Shown here one piece after another: positions 712 through 54,676 of a stretch of 64,000 nucleotides of DNA. Source of the DNA: Thermodesulfovibrio sp. (GTDB lineage: Bacteria > Nitrospirota > Thermodesulfovibrionia > Thermodesulfovibrionales > UBA6898). Location of the stretch: positions 1 to 64,000 of the forward strand of contig PNOC01000010.1 of assembly GCA_013824615.1 (NCBI GenBank). Reading direction: 5' to 3'. The translations under genes were made by a program, and so were the position numbers. The notes below the pieces were generated by a model. The model made no database searches. It was not told the DNA's origin and saw only the letters and a program-made list of their open reading frames with translations. Every line of letters starts with the position of its first letter. Position 1 is the first letter of the stretch.

Positions 712-1289
712 AACGATGATCTTTTGATGCCTGAAGCCTTTCGGACATGCAGAATCCTTTGCATGACAGTAACATGCGTCAGTACGGCGAGGATCCAAAG
801 GACAGGCATTACCAGACCGCTCAATGCACCGAAAACTATCAGAAGTATTCTTTCGGGCCTTTCCATGAGACCGACCTTGCAGTCGACACCCAACCCCTCT
901 GCCCTCGCCCGCACATAACTGACCAGCAGAGCTCCGACAAGTATACTGAGGGCCAAGGCAGCACCAGGCAGATTATTATCGAGGTATAGATTCAGTGATA
1001 CAGACAGGAAGATAAAGGCATCAGAGTAACGGTCCAGAACAGAATCCAGAAAAGCCCCATACAACGTAGCCTTGTTATTAACTCGGGCGACCACCCCGTC
1101 AAGAATATCGAAAAAAGCCCCAAGGAGGACCAGCATTCCACCCCAGCGCATATCAAAGACAAGTACAACAGATGCTGCAAAGGTAACAAAAAATCCGGCT
1201 ATCGTCAGAACATTCGGATTCAGGGTAATGCCTGCAGCTACTCCCCCTAACGGCTTGTCAAAGACATGGCCTAGTTTTTCACCAATCAT
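708..1289 (-). CDS. CDP-alcohol phosphatidyltransferase, probably phosphatidylinositol-phosphate synthase
   Basis: This integral membrane protein of 193 residues has the complete CDP-alcohol phosphotransferase signature: D61, D64-G65, A68-R69, G78, D82 and D86, followed by hydrophobic segments. The family joins a CDP-linked lipid to an alcohol. The gene lies 11 bases downstream of an inositol-3-phosphate synthase on the same strand, so the likely acceptor is inositol-1-phosphate (Pgs/PIS family), giving phosphatidylinositol phosphate. The pathway assignment is inferred from this pairing. A phosphatidylglycerophosphate synthase role is the main alternative, but the neighbour makes it less likely. 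Confidence 0.8.
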   Translation of the reverse strand: MIGEKLGHVFDKPLGGVAAGITLNPNVLTIAGFFVTFAASVVLVFDMRWGGMLVLLGAFFDILDGVVARVNNKATLYGAFLDSVLDRYSDAFIFLSVSLNLYLDNNLPGAALALSILVGALLVSYVRARAEGLGVDCKVGLMERPERILLIVFGALSGLVMPVLWILAVLTHVTVMQRILHVRKASGIKRSSF

Positions 1290-1300
1290 CAGGCGGCCGG

Positions 1301-2404
1301 TTAGCGCTCCCTCTTACCGTCAATAAATTCCTCAACCATGGTCTTAGCGGTATCATCAGGAAACTGTTTTAACGGATGCTTCATGAAATATGCAGAGGGT
1401 GACAGCAGAGACCCGCCGATCTTCCTGTCGCGCGCTAATTTGCAGCACCTGACTGCATCGATCACCACGCCGGCACTGTTCGGAGAGTCTTCGACCGAAA
1501 GGCGCATCTCAAGATGGAGGGGCACATTGCCGAACCCTCTTCCCTCGATTCTGAGAAAACAGACTTTGTTGTCATTGAGCCACGGGATATAATCCGACGG
1601 GCCTATGTGGATATGGTCGGGGTGCAGGGGGTGCTGCATCTGCGACTGAACAGCCTCTGTCTTCGAAATTTTCTTCATTTTCAGGCGGTTGCTGTTGAGC
1701 ATATTCATGAAATCGGTATTGCCACCCACATTCAGCTGATACGTACTGTCGATGGCCACTCCCCGATCTTCGAAGAGCTTTGTCAGGCAGCGGTGAATAA
1801 TCGTAGCGCCTATCTGGCTTTTTATGTCGTCCCCAATCGCAGGTATACCGCTGTCCTGAAATCTCTTAGCCCACTCCCGGTTCGATACAATAAATACCGG
1901 CACGCAGTTGACGAGGCTTACCCCTGCCTTCAGGCAGGCCTCAGCGTAGAAGGCGGTCGCCTTTGCAGAGCCTACCGGAAGGTAGTTGATCAGAATGTCA
2001 GCGCCGGAGTTCCTGAGGGCCTTTACCACATCCACCGGCTTTTTCTTGGCGATAACAAACCGGCGGTGCTGCGGATAGCCGGCCATATGGTCAGATACTC
2101 CGTCAAGTACTGTCCCCATGCCGACCTTAATATCACTGCCGGATACTACCTTATGAAACTTCATGGTGCAGTTGGGCTCACTGAATATCGCATCCCGGAC
2201 CGGCTTTCCGACTTTACGCGCATCGATATCAAAAGCTGCGACGACTTTTATATCCCCGGGCCGATAGCCTCCGAGACTGTAATGCATAAGCCCGGGGACC
2301 TGTTCATCCTTCTTCTGTTTATGGCGACTGTAGTAGTCAATGCCCTGTATCAAAGAACTCGCGCAATTGCCGACGCCGGCTATTGCTATTCTAATCTCTT
2401 TCAT
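1301..2404 (-). CDS. ino1: inositol-3-phosphate synthase (Ino1)
   Basis: This NAD-dependent enzyme converts glucose-6-phosphate to L-myo-inositol-1-phosphate. The 367-residue protein starts with a Rossmann motif GVGNCASSL, which is typical of the short actinobacterial and archaeal Ino1 class, followed by the conserved GYRPGDI segment, an NTDF-containing stretch and a KISKTEAV segment. The length fits that class rather than the ~500-residue eukaryotic class. It is the first gene of a two-gene unit with the downstream CDP-alcohol phosphotransferase, so inositol is most likely made for phospholipid head groups. The gene is divergent from mdh across a 157-base intergenic region. Confidence 0.93.
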   Translation of the reverse strand: MKEIRIAIAGVGNCASSLIQGIDYYSRHKQKKDEQVPGLMHYSLGGYRPGDIKVVAAFDIDARKVGKPVRDAIFSEPNCTMKFHKVVSGSDIKVGMGTVLDGVSDHMAGYPQHRRFVIAKKKPVDVVKALRNSGADILINYLPVGSAKATAFYAEACLKAGVSLVNCVPVFIVSNREWAKRFQDSGIPAIGDDIKSQIGATIIHRCLTKLFEDRGVAIDSTYQLNVGGNTDFMNMLNSNRLKMKKISKTEAVQSQMQHPLHPDHIHIGPSDYIPWLNDNKVCFLRIEGRGFGNVPLHLEMRLSVEDSPNSAGVVIDAVRCCKLARDRKIGGSLLSPSAYFMKHPLKQFPDDTAKTMVEEFIDGKRER

Positions 2405-46576: not shown

Positions 46577-47653
46577 CTACCATGCAGTGTTTTTCGTGGG
46601 GGGTGCTGGACTGACCTTATCACGTTCAGCGGTGAATATCTTCATGACCAGCAACCATATCAGCATCGGAGCGATGAATGATGACATAACAATGCACCAG
46701 ATGAGCACAGAGTGAATGTCAGGCCCCGCAGTGACCTCCAGCAACCAATCGAGAGCTATGATCAGCATATGCTGGAGCCCCAGTATAACAGTTGCGGCGG
46801 TTAACCGTTTCAGGAATATCTTCACCTGCGAGCGGACAAAAGTTATTGATGCAATGGGGAGGATCAGAGCTGCGTTCAATATATAAAAGGTTGTCTTGCT
46901 ATAGATCACACTGTTACCAACCACATACCCGATGAGCCTGCCCTCGGATATAACCTGCTCAGGCACGTTAATAATAGGTGAAAGTATCCGGAACATAGCA
47001 TTCGAAAGGGCTGCCAGCAGAGAAACATAGGCTGCGAAAAATGTCACCATGAGCCAGAATGACAACGAGGCAGTTGCCGCAATGACCAGAATATGGATGA
47101 ACAGCTTTCTGTTAAATATCCTCCTGCCGTTGACCCAGATAATCCAGAGCAGCAATACTAAGAGTGCAAACAGCCCCTGCCAGAGATAGTTATGTACGAA
47201 GTCGAATAAGGTAGTGAAATATCTGCCAATGAATCCTATTGCGCCGATCCTGAGAATATTCAGCAGGAATATCGCCAGCGTGCCGATGATAATGCCGGCA
47301 GCCCGATACGACAGGCTATGGCTGCGAAAAGCCAGCACGCCGGCAACAAAGATGATCGTGTAGTGCAGTGCCGTGCATTCGAGGACTATTTCCATGGGGA
47401 AGCCGATAAAGGTCAACTTCGTGCCTGAGCAGACAACCGGAACTGAAAAGAAACCCCAAAAAGCGGTAATGGCAGTAGCGATGAACATTCGCAATACCAG
47501 CATAAAGCCCGATCCTATCTCGGCAATGCCGACGAATATGCTGACGTACAACAGAAAAAGACCGAGGAAGCCCCACTCAATGCTTACAGGTTTATTCTCA
47601 GCGAGCTGCACGATATCCTCGTGGTTGAGAAGTTGACCGGGGCCCTGCACCAC
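46577..47653 (-). CDS. exosortase/archaeosortase-family transpeptidase, XrtH-like, with extra membrane domain
   Basis: Exosortases cut and reanchor exported proteins carrying a C-terminal sorting signal. The 358-residue protein has the Cys-Arg-His triad: C93 in MEIVLECTALHYT, R135 in LLNILRIGAIG, and H154 in FDFVHNYLWQ, the arrangement of the XrtH/archaeosortase group. About 190 residues after the catalytic part hold several more helices, so it is about twice the size of simple XrtH proteins. The start is GTG. The next gene upstream encodes a surface protein with a sorting-like C-terminus, its likely substrate. Confidence 0.83.
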   Translation of the reverse strand: MVQGPGQLLNHEDIVQLAENKPVSIEWGFLGLFLLYVSIFVGIAEIGSGFMLVLRMFIATAITAFWGFFSVPVVCSGTKLTFIGFPMEIVLECTALHYTIIFVAGVLAFRSHSLSYRAAGIIIGTLAIFLLNILRIGAIGFIGRYFTTLFDFVHNYLWQGLFALLVLLLWIIWVNGRRIFNRKLFIHILVIAATASLSFWLMVTFFAAYVSLLAALSNAMFRILSPIINVPEQVISEGRLIGYVVGNSVIYSKTTFYILNAALILPIASITFVRSQVKIFLKRLTAATVILGLQHMLIIALDWLLEVTAGPDIHSVLIWCIVMSSFIAPMLIWLLVMKIFTAERDKVSPAPPTKNTAW

Positions 47654-47803
47654 TTATCCTGCCTGAGCTCATAATTATGCGGTTATTACAGCCACGAGAC
47701 ACCAGCCGTCGGCGCAGCAGCGCCTTGGGTCCTGCTGCGCAGACGACGAATATCTCGCACTGCATGGCTGCTGAATGATTCAATGTGTCCCCTGTTGCTC
47801 AGC

Positions 47804-49447
47804 TCAGGAAATCTTTTTATCCTGCCTCTTTCGCCATACCATACCGTAGGAAATCATACCAGCCACTACTATTATGAACAAAGGCCAGTTGCCGACCGGA
47901 ACAGGCGGGGGCGCACCGTCATTGTCCATATTGGTAACGGCCACATCGGATGCATTCAATCCGTTATAGTTTCCATCTGTCGATGTTGCTGCGGCAGTGA
48001 TAATAGAGTACGCAATGTTTCCGTCCACAATTGCATCATCCACACCGGTTACGGTCACTGTTTGTGACGTGCTCCAGTTGCCGCTGGTGAAGGTGACTGA
48101 TGTTGGGGCTACAGTGCCTTCGCTGGTGATCGAGCTGCTGAGGTTGATGGTCACATTGTTGGTTGGCGCAGAGTCGAGTACGATCGTAAACTGCGCTGTG
48201 CCGCCTGCCTCTGTTGTTGTCAGTCCACTTGTGGGATTGACTGTGATTCCGGGGGAGCCTGCTACGTCATCATCAGTATTCGTGACAGATACATCGGATG
48301 CATTCAGCCCGCTATAGTTGCTATCCGCCGAAGATGCTGCAGCAGTGATAATAGTGTACGCGATATTTCCGTCCACAACTGCATCATCCACGCCGGTTAC
48401 GGTCACTGTTTGTGCTGTGCTCCAGTTGCCGCTGGTGAAGGTGACAGAGGCAGGAGAAACAGTTCCCTCTGAGGTGTCAGAGCTGCTGAGGTTGATGCTT
48501 ACATTGTTGGTTGGCGCCGAATCGAGCACGATCGTGAACTGAGCGGTGCCACCTGCTTCCGTTGTTGTCAGCCCGCTTGTCGGATTGACCGTGATGCCGG
48601 GGGTAGAAGCTGATGCCGGGTTCAGCACACCGGCCACGACAGCGGCCCTATTTCTTACTGTGGCACCTGAGAAGGTTATAACATCTGTGCTTGGATAGGT
48701 GCCGGATGATGCGTTTGCGGCATCAGCGATAAAAGGGCTTTGAAGGGTATTTGCACCTTGCAACTGCTGTGTAAAGTTCGGTGCAGTTTTGGTCACTGTT
48801 GTCAGAGCAGTCCCACCGTTGGCAGTGACAAAAAGCGTAACTGAATCCGCTGTGTATGCAACATTGGACCCCAGCGTAATGGTGGCTGTATTGGCATTAC
48901 TCGCTGCAGTACTATTAACCGTTGAAGTCTGGGCCACTCCTTGATAAGAACCGGTCATGACAGACAATCCGGAACAATTGGTCGTTGTTGTTGTCGCAGC
49001 CCAACTTACATAAATAGCATGTGTCCCTGATGTGAACTGAGCTTCTGGCAGATATCCTGCATAACAGTGCTCTGCCCCTGCTACGGAAGTAAGCCCGATC
49101 TGCGTGAACTGTGCGCCTGTGGAAGTATCGAGCCTTACATCCAAGGTCGCTCCATTAATTAACATGGTGCCGGTCGTGCCAAATTCCCAGCATATACCTA
49201 CGGCAAGAAGTTTATTTGATCCAGTGGCCGAAACAGTAAAATTATTGGACGTAAGCGTTCCTGTTGTGGCACCAGGGTTTGCTGAATAGACTTCACTCCA
49301 GGCGTCCAGAGCTGTAACCGCTGCTTCTGTCCGCCCGGGGCTGTAAAGCCCTGCAAATATGCCTATACTTAATACCACAATCATGACCATCCCAAGGCTG
49401 ATTCGGCTTCTGGATGCTGCTGCTGGCATATGGTCGTTCTTCTTCAT
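47804..49447 (-). CDS. secreted Calx-beta repeat protein with exosortase-type C-terminal signal
   Basis: The 547-residue protein has an N-terminal signal peptide (hydrophobic stretch near residues 18-35), a ~230-residue beta-rich region rich in Thr, Ser, Asn and Ala, and two tandem ~115-residue Calx-beta-like domains (ITVNPTSGLTTTEAGGTAQF, TVTVTGVDDAVVDGNIAYTI). The end is PVPVGNWPLF, then a hydrophobic helix and KRQDKK, the three-part form of a PEP-CTERM-like sorting signal, though the motif resembles but does not equal IPTLxxWG. The exosortase gene downstream is its probable processing enzyme. The protein is probably displayed on the cell surface. Confidence 0.8.
   Translation of the reverse strand: MKKNDHMPAAASRSRISLGMVMIVVLSIGIFAGLYSPGRTEAAVTALDAWSEVYSANPGATTGTLTSNNFTVSATGSNKLLAVGICWEFGTTGTMLINGATLDVRLDTSTGAQFTQIGLTSVAGAEHCYAGYLPEAQFTSGTHAIYVSWAATTTTTNCSGLSVMTGSYQGVAQTSTVNSTAASNANTATITLGSNVAYTADSVTLFVTANGGTALTTVTKTAPNFTQQLQGANTLQSPFIADAANASSGTYPSTDVITFSGATVRNRAAVVAGVLNPASASTPGITVNPTSGLTTTEAGGTAQFTIVLDSAPTNNVSINLSSSDTSEGTVSPASVTFTSGNWSTAQTVTVTGVDDAVVDGNIAYTIITAAASSADSNYSGLNASDVSVTNTDDDVAGSPGITVNPTSGLTTTEAGGTAQFTIVLDSAPTNNVTINLSSSITSEGTVAPTSVTFTSGNWSTSQTVTVTGVDDAIVDGNIAYSIITAAATSTDGNYNGLNASDVAVTNMDNDGAPPPVPVGNWPLFIIVVAGMISYGMVWRKRQDKKIS
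47921..48605 (-). repeat. tandem ~345-bp repeat encoding two Calx-beta domains
   Basis: Two direct copies, about 47921-48265 and 48266-48605, are highly similar at the DNA level (for example GGATTGAC-GTGAT-CCGGGGG at each junction and TCCAGTTGCCGCTGGTGAAG in both). The close nucleotide match indicates a recent duplication or homogenisation by gene conversion. Confidence 0.75.
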
Positions 49448-49593: not shown

Positions 49594-50265
49594 TTAAGCG
49601 AGAAGAGAAGGAGGGGAAAGGCCTGAATGAGGCGAAAGATATACTTCGGAAACAGTGACATGTTCTGAACTTCGGGAAAAGCGGAAACGACGGGGGTCTA
49701 TTATGAGGTTGCTGCCCAGATATAATTTTGCTGAGACATGGGCCGCAATTGCCATCAACAGAAGAAAGAAAAGGGTGAAGGACCGTAATAAGGCGCGCTT
49801 CTTTTTGACCATTACCTCTACGTCAGCATCGTCAGAGCTGATCAATCCTTCCGCAGTCAATCTGTCACTCATTAAACTTAGAATTCTTTCGACCATCACG
49901 ATCCTTATCGATGCGGCCTCAGAATTCTGCTGCAGGCCCTTGAGAAAGCTGTCCGAAGTCATTCTCAGGGGCGACATGGAATATACGGCAAAAAATAACA
50001 AGAACATAATATAGTGCAGGCGGAATTTCAGAAAGGGGGTATGGGCTTCAGAAGGGGAGAAGAAATATTTTATGCAAAACTGAGGTATTTCGCGCAGATG
50101 TTTTATATGCCCCTTACAACTCCTCAGGGAAATGCTGCTTCTTTTACCTTGTAATAATTTCATTTTCATTCCCAGGTTTATCTTAGCATATCCCATGCCA
50201 ATCATAACAGATAATATCAGGACAAAAAGAGGTCGCTCAATAAAGACCACCCTGTTAAAGTTCAT
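49594..50265 (-). CDS. hypothetical protein with HSGLSPPS C-terminal tail
   Basis: The open frame gives 223 residues with three hydrophobic segments, but only the last part is well supported: ATG49812 after AGAGGT would give a 72-residue protein with a signal-like helix (SFTLFFLLLMAIAAHVSA) and the tail SPHSGLSPPSLLA. The same tail, HSGLSPPSFL, ends the 143-residue protein at 54245-54676. I do not recognise the family. The true start is uncertain. Confidence 0.5.
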   Translation of the reverse strand: MNFNRVVFIERPLFVLILSVMIGMGYAKINLGMKMKLLQGKRSSISLRSCKGHIKHLREIPQFCIKYFFSPSEAHTPFLKFRLHYIMFLLFFAVYSMSPLRMTSDSFLKGLQQNSEAASIRIVMVERILSLMSDRLTAEGLISSDDADVEVMVKKKRALLRSFTLFFLLLMAIAAHVSAKLYLGSNLIIDPRRFRFSRSSEHVTVSEVYLSPHSGLSPPSLLA

Positions 50266-54244: not shown

Positions 54245-54676
54245 TTAAGAAAAGATGTTAAGAAAAGAGGGGGGGGAAAGCCCGGAATGCGTTAAACGAG
54301 GTGTTGTATCCACTGATAAGAGACTTATAGTGCGAAATCGAGTTAACTCCGAATATAAGAATAAGTCTTGTGTATCCTCCGTCGCACCATCGATTATTAT
54401 TGAACCAATAGTTTTTGCTGGCTCATCGTTCTTTTCTGAAGAAATAATATATGCAGAATTATCGGAAGAACATTTTGCCTTCTTGAGGATTTCCCAGAGA
54501 GCGAGATCAAAGAAAAAGAGATCGGCCTGCGTTTTTTGCTTACTAAAAATATCCTTTTGCTCACTATGATCAAGCTGCTCCGGAGGAAATATCGCAGACA
54601 CTGGCGATACTGCAAATCCCACGAAATACAGAAGAAGAAGCAAGGCAAATATCTTATTCGATTTGATCAGGCTCAT
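54245..54676 (-). CDS. secreted hypothetical protein with HSGLSPPS tail
   Basis: The 143-residue protein starts with a clear signal peptide (NKIFALLLLLYFVGFAVSPVSA) and has a charged, Lys/Glu-rich middle without a known domain, ending RLTHSGLSPPSFLNIFS. The HSGLSPPS tail also ends the frame at 49594. Family and function are not known. The gene lies alone between the CBS gene and the glycosyltransferase gene. Confidence 0.6.
   Translation of the reverse strand: MSLIKSNKIFALLLLLYFVGFAVSPVSAIFPPEQLDHSEQKDIFSKQKTQADLFFFDLALWEILKKAKCSSDNSAYIISSEKNDEPAKTIGSIIIDGATEDTQDLFLYSELTRFRTISLLSVDTTPRLTHSGLSPPSFLNIFS

Follow-up and report, generated by a model that had tools for sequence, protein, structure and literature searches.

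Does an enlarged exosortase encoded beside a single surface protein with an unusual C-terminal tail form a sorting system of its own? The question is raised by two adjoining minus-strand genes in a 64,000-nucleotide stretch of a Thermodesulfovibrio sp. genome (contig PNOC01000010.1; hereafter the window), for which a preliminary description, made from the letters alone, had proposed a variant sorting signal served by a dedicated, enlarged exosortase. We compared the locus with its relatives and with known sorting families, and the proposal gained support from ten loci, from the presence of one tag per enzyme copy, from a separate clade of enzymes and from the lack of any NCBIfam family of this length. 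As far as sequence comparison can tell, the pair is very likely a one-target ('dedicated') sorting system, with an exosortase of an unnamed subfamily at its centre.

The long exosortase, its neighbour and their relatives

The enzyme gene (46577..47653, minus strand; GTG start) encodes 358 residues. Its N-terminal half matched the superfamily model TIGR04178 (exo_archaeo) with 51.4 bits in the NCBIfam scan, above the cut-off of 23. This catalytic domain (residues 27–176; 47126..47575, minus strand) has the signature LECTALHY and contains Cys93, Arg135 and His154. The open reading frame and the three residues are where the preliminary description placed them, and the residues are invariant in all nine of the long enzymes that we aligned. 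The catalytic role of the triad comes from archaeosortase A work cited in PMC11980579. Beyond the superfamily, the best named NCBIfam model was XrtH (TIGR04177), with 70.7 bits against a cut-off of 86; eight of the nine long enzymes also fall below this cut-off, the exception being that of G103 (87.2 bits). Archaeosortase B (TIGR04144) was the second-best named match (56.2 bits, cut-off 150), and exosortase X (NF046081), which ranks with the top named models for every member, gave 46.4 bits (cut-off 170). The suggested profile search against known Xrt families therefore left the window enzyme under the cut-offs of all three, and no NCBIfam family matched its length. The remainder of the protein is a C-terminal membrane domain (residues 178–345; 46619..47122, minus strand), predicted with low confidence to consist of helices around a short beta-rich loop. 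It comprises about 170 residues, rather than the roughly 190 first estimated, and is conserved in all long members of the nine-enzyme alignment.

The gene directly upstream (47804..49447, minus strand) encodes a putative substrate, a predicted secreted surface protein of 547 residues with a signal peptide and a sorting tail. The tail (residues 516–547; 47804..47902, minus strand) has the three parts that were first read in it, namely the motif VPVGNWP, a helix and a basic end, WRKRQDKK, and the C terminus of the protein is PPVPVGNWPLFIIVVAGMISYGMVWRKRQDKKIS. A tail profile that was built with this protein included found it in its own genome with E = 2.3e-25, as the sole strong match; the next best place had an E value of 0.35, and the search for other proteins of the genome with the same motif thus gave none below this value. 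The protein had also been named a Calx-beta substrate. Pfam found no Calx-beta domain (PF03160, cut-off 27 bits) and nothing else named in the window protein, but the label does hold for the partners in G008 and G064; one G012 copy has a bacterial Ig-like body.

Further long exosortases occur within the genus and the family of the window genome, and in one other family of Nitrospirota. The single protein, used as a query against the genome collection, gave no match; an alignment used in the same way returned Nitrospirota records only. No relative was found on plasmids or among solved structures. The relatives are few, all from Nitrospirota and mostly in fragmented draft assemblies, and ten loci could be read in eight genomes: the window (G000), G008, G025, G002, G012 (two), G064, G082 (two) and G103. 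In all ten, the long exosortase adjoins a gene ending in a P-x-G-[NSD] tail. The motifs read VPVGNWP in G000, VPIGNWP in G008, VPVGNWP in G025, VPAGSIP in G002, VPAGNWP and VPVGSIP in contigs C35 and C8 of G012, VPAGNLL in G064, TPAGNRI and SPAGNAY in contigs C150 and C129 of G082, and VPAGDLF in G103. P-x-G-[NSD] is the core common to the relatives, usually together with Y-G in the helix. The preliminary description had set the tail apart from IPTLxxWG by the three residues, instead of four, between P and W. That count is right for the window tail, but because the W is not conserved in the relatives, where it is replaced in, for example, SIP, NLL, NRI, NAY and DLF, and the spacing varies with it, the gap is not the key feature of the tag.

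Two of the loci depart from the usual arrangement. In G103 the tail, which was spotted by eye, lies on a 73-residue protein composed of a signal peptide, a proline linker and the tail (L081, 4849–5070, minus strand), and a tail-less body protein of 730 residues adjoins it (L081, 2586–4778, minus strand), as if the substrate were split into two genes. The second long exosortase of G012, on C8, is interrupted after its catalytic half (L045, around 996–1532, minus strand) beside a substrate gene that looks intact.

Origin of the C-terminal half

Neither NCBIfam nor Pfam gave a significant match for the C-terminal half. Whether it occurs alone elsewhere had been posed as a check; among 390 genomes of the phylum Nitrospirota, it was not found by itself at E values up to 0.01, and the remaining hits were a fragment at the end of a contig in G024 and two very weak matches to frames of about 790 residues that look unrelated. 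The model NF041730 for the XrtH-associated protein (cut-off 35 bits) did not match the half at E values up to 10, or anything at the locus at E values up to 1. These results are consistent with an unrelated new domain that has a role of its own, such as acceptor binding or transfer. Such a domain would be compatible with a dedicated pair, and we regard it as possible but doubtful, for reasons that come from the canonical systems.

Canonical systems encode XrtH_assoc, a separate membrane protein of similar length to the C-terminal half, beside the XrtH gene, and its place just after XrtH is the same order as that of the two halves of the long enzyme. A profile of 23 XrtH_assoc proteins aligned collinearly with the half over 139 columns; the match was weak (P = 0.0023). 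When the columns were trimmed, the comparison gave P = 0.0051 and a score of 24.7, exceeding all 60 local shuffles (maximum 21.8) and the reversed control. Landmarks also agree by eye, namely N-A-x-L at a helix start, a histidine in the next helix and a proline in the last helix. Direct HMM scores can be read both ways: those of XrtH_assoc members are low, at up to 9.7 bits, which would suit a new domain, but five unrelated membrane proteins of the window scored −0.7 bits or less. A low-confidence structure model (four sequences, mean pLDDT 49), of which we used only the order of elements, has a helix, three strands and then three helices, an order that fits this kinship but does not decide the matter. 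Because of its weak resemblance to the separate XrtH-associated membrane protein, the C-terminal half may be a fused partner of that kind rather than a wholly new domain, and the profile comparison is suggestive in this respect.

Tags, enzymes and a canonical XrtH beside the long enzyme

The genome that contains the window also encodes a canonical XrtH of 201 residues (93.4 bits, over the cut-off), followed by a gene for an XrtH-associated membrane protein. We further found nine VPTxxEWG-like tails with a helix and basic residues, one of which reads VPTLSTWS. Many standard IPTL tails in the genome had been expected to speak against a dedicated enzyme. Taken literally, such tails are present, but the canonical XrtH is available for them, and the two systems therefore appear to run in parallel.

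This arrangement bears on a rival reading, in which the long enzyme is no more than an XrtH that has diverged and handles the IPTL-like tails as well, the tail of its neighbour being a drifted IPTL tail. XrtH is indeed its best named match, the G103 relative lies just over the XrtH cut-off and the tails resemble each other (VPTISEWG and VPVGNWP). However, the genome has its own XrtH with the associated gene, and the IPTL-CTERM model TIGR04174 gave 11 matches in the genome at E values up to 10 without the window substrate tail among them; the NCBIfam scan likewise gave no match for this tail. A maximum-likelihood tree built on the catalytic domains splits canonical XrtH, with a support of 100, from the long enzymes, which are joined there by a second type of fused enzyme and by one stand-alone enzyme from G277. 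The nine long enzymes do not group with canonical XrtH but make up a clade of their own (support 89). The context of the cysteine also differs, being GCNG in most canonical enzymes and ECTA in the long ones. Together with tags that come one per enzyme and track the enzyme type, as set out below, this makes a divergent XrtH with a drifted tail quite unlikely.

The second fused type, of about 350 residues with ECTP or DCTP at the cysteine, is encoded at L046 (5492–6517), L082 (6108–7181) and L083 (5399–6427), and in G042 and G372 proteins whose tails resemble PEP-CTERM are encoded nearby. Another arrangement is seen in G277 (L164, 4399–5503, minus strand), where a gene for a short exosortase of the ECTA type overlaps the beginning of one for a membrane protein of 190 residues that ends in a C2H2-like zinc motif. 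These two genes may represent the unfused form of the long enzyme.

With respect to the tags, a profile of nine tails, searched over the eight genomes, gave nine matches with E values no higher than 4e-15, each next to a long exosortase; the next value was 0.017. Seven of the eight genomes have one such tail for each enzyme copy. Because the profile was built from those nine tails themselves, strongly diverged tails are missed, as was the 73-residue protein of G103. Across the ten pairs, enzyme identity and tail identity were correlated (Mantel r = 0.69, p = 0.0002), a relation that shared species history could explain in part. The two pairs of G012 match by enzyme type: the enzyme that is 82% identical to that of G002 is paired with a tail that is 81% identical to the G002 tail, and for the other pair the values are only 42% and 44%. 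History alone is therefore disfavoured as an explanation of the correlation. Dedicated one-target sorting systems are a named kind (PMC3237569, the rhombosortase paper of 2011), recognized there by a single genomic target whose gene adjoins that of the enzyme, and the long-exosortase loci have both features. A decaying or incidental pair, brought together by chance and with a tail that serves as a plain membrane anchor, is very improbable. The C8 copy in G012 is indeed interrupted, but adjacency with matching tails persists in all ten loci, whose enzymes are as little as about 30% identical and whose substrate bodies differ, and the catalytic residues are invariant.

A bolder reading of the dedicated system is that it represents a new exosortase class, in which the enzyme and its accessory partner are one polypeptide that co-evolves one to one with a single tag type, so that the two copies in G012 and the canonical XrtH would be orthogonal. 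We hold this tentatively, with chances approaching even. If true, it would mean that tag specificity could be mapped by swapping parts.

Intergenic hairpin, proposed sorting route and known systems

Between the substrate and enzyme genes lies a strong stem-loop without a T-run (47688..47758, minus strand). Its intergenic region has a folding-energy z-score of −3.6 in the window, and the corresponding values are −2.7 to −6.9 in G008, G025, G002 and the C35 locus of G012 and weaker in G064 (−1.95). Five loci besides that of the window thus have hairpins between these two genes, with sequences that differ between distant loci. When three sequences of close relatives were folded together, much of the stem was kept and two pairs had changes on both sides; the covariation term was not favourable. 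Rfam had no family that matched the hairpin. We also considered a dispersed repeat and rejected it, as the element occurs once in the genome.

Upstream of the substrate gene, the window encodes a small, predicted secreted or membrane protein that ends in SGLSPPSLLA (49594..50265, minus strand; start codon uncertain). It is a frequent third gene: in G008, G025, G064, G082, G103 and G012, a homologue is encoded close to the substrate or the enzyme. The SGLSPP motif is also found outside these loci, for example at 54245–54676 (minus strand) in the window. Small proteins of this type, for which Pfam has no family, occur several times per genome, some upstream of surface-protein genes (L165, 4671–5144, with GMAPP; L166, 4503–4976). 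In G002 and one G012 locus, genes resembling those for a LuxR-type response regulator and a histidine kinase lie upstream of the substrate in place of the SGLSPP protein (L043, 10106–12825; L045, 3911–6900).

If the long exosortase acts as a dedicated enzyme, the substrate would be exported by means of its N-terminal signal peptide and held in the inner membrane by its C-terminal helix and basic end. Cys93, aided by Arg135 and His154, would then cut at or near P-x-G-[NSD], and the new C terminus would be passed to an acceptor in the membrane or at the surface, bringing the body of the substrate to the cell surface. The fused C-terminal domain probably takes the place of the separate XrtH-associated protein, for example by docking the substrate or the acceptor, and the intergenic hairpin probably allows much more substrate than enzyme to be made. 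Some Nitrospirota would accordingly have a general sorting enzyme and a second, larger one, apparently for one surface protein that is encoded by the adjacent gene and bears its own tag. To our knowledge, the exosortase acceptor and the determinants of tail choice by each enzyme are largely open questions. A one-enzyme, one-target pair beside a canonical XrtH with many targets offers a clean setting for tests of tag specificity and, if the fused half is an XrtH-associated protein, this would suggest that this unexplained partner acts in physical contact with the enzyme.

Among known systems, the closest is XrtH/IPTL-CTERM (TIGR04177, TIGR04174 and NF041730), which shares the superfamily, the Cys–Arg–His residues, a tripartite tail starting from V/I-P and a second, multi-helix membrane partner. 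The long enzyme differs in its length (about 350 residues, against about 190 for XrtH), in ECTA instead of GCNG, in a P-x-G-[NSD] tag instead of PTxxEWG, in having one target instead of about nine and in the fusion of the partner-like half. Archaeosortase B recognizes VPXXXP-CTERM tags (TIGR04144), which likewise start with VP and have a later P, but this P is not conserved in the long-exosortase tags and the score is far under the cut-off. Exosortase X (NF046081) belongs to the same superfamily, with 46 bits against a cut-off of 170. The dedicated systems of PMC3237569 also have one genomic target encoded next to the sorting enzyme; those cases involve rhombosortase and sortase, whereas the long enzymes are exosortases, in a clade apart and with a tag of their own. 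Dedicated sorting as a kind is thus already known; the novelty appears to lie in the clade and its tag, in the larger enzyme with its possible fusion, and in the matching of tag to enzyme.
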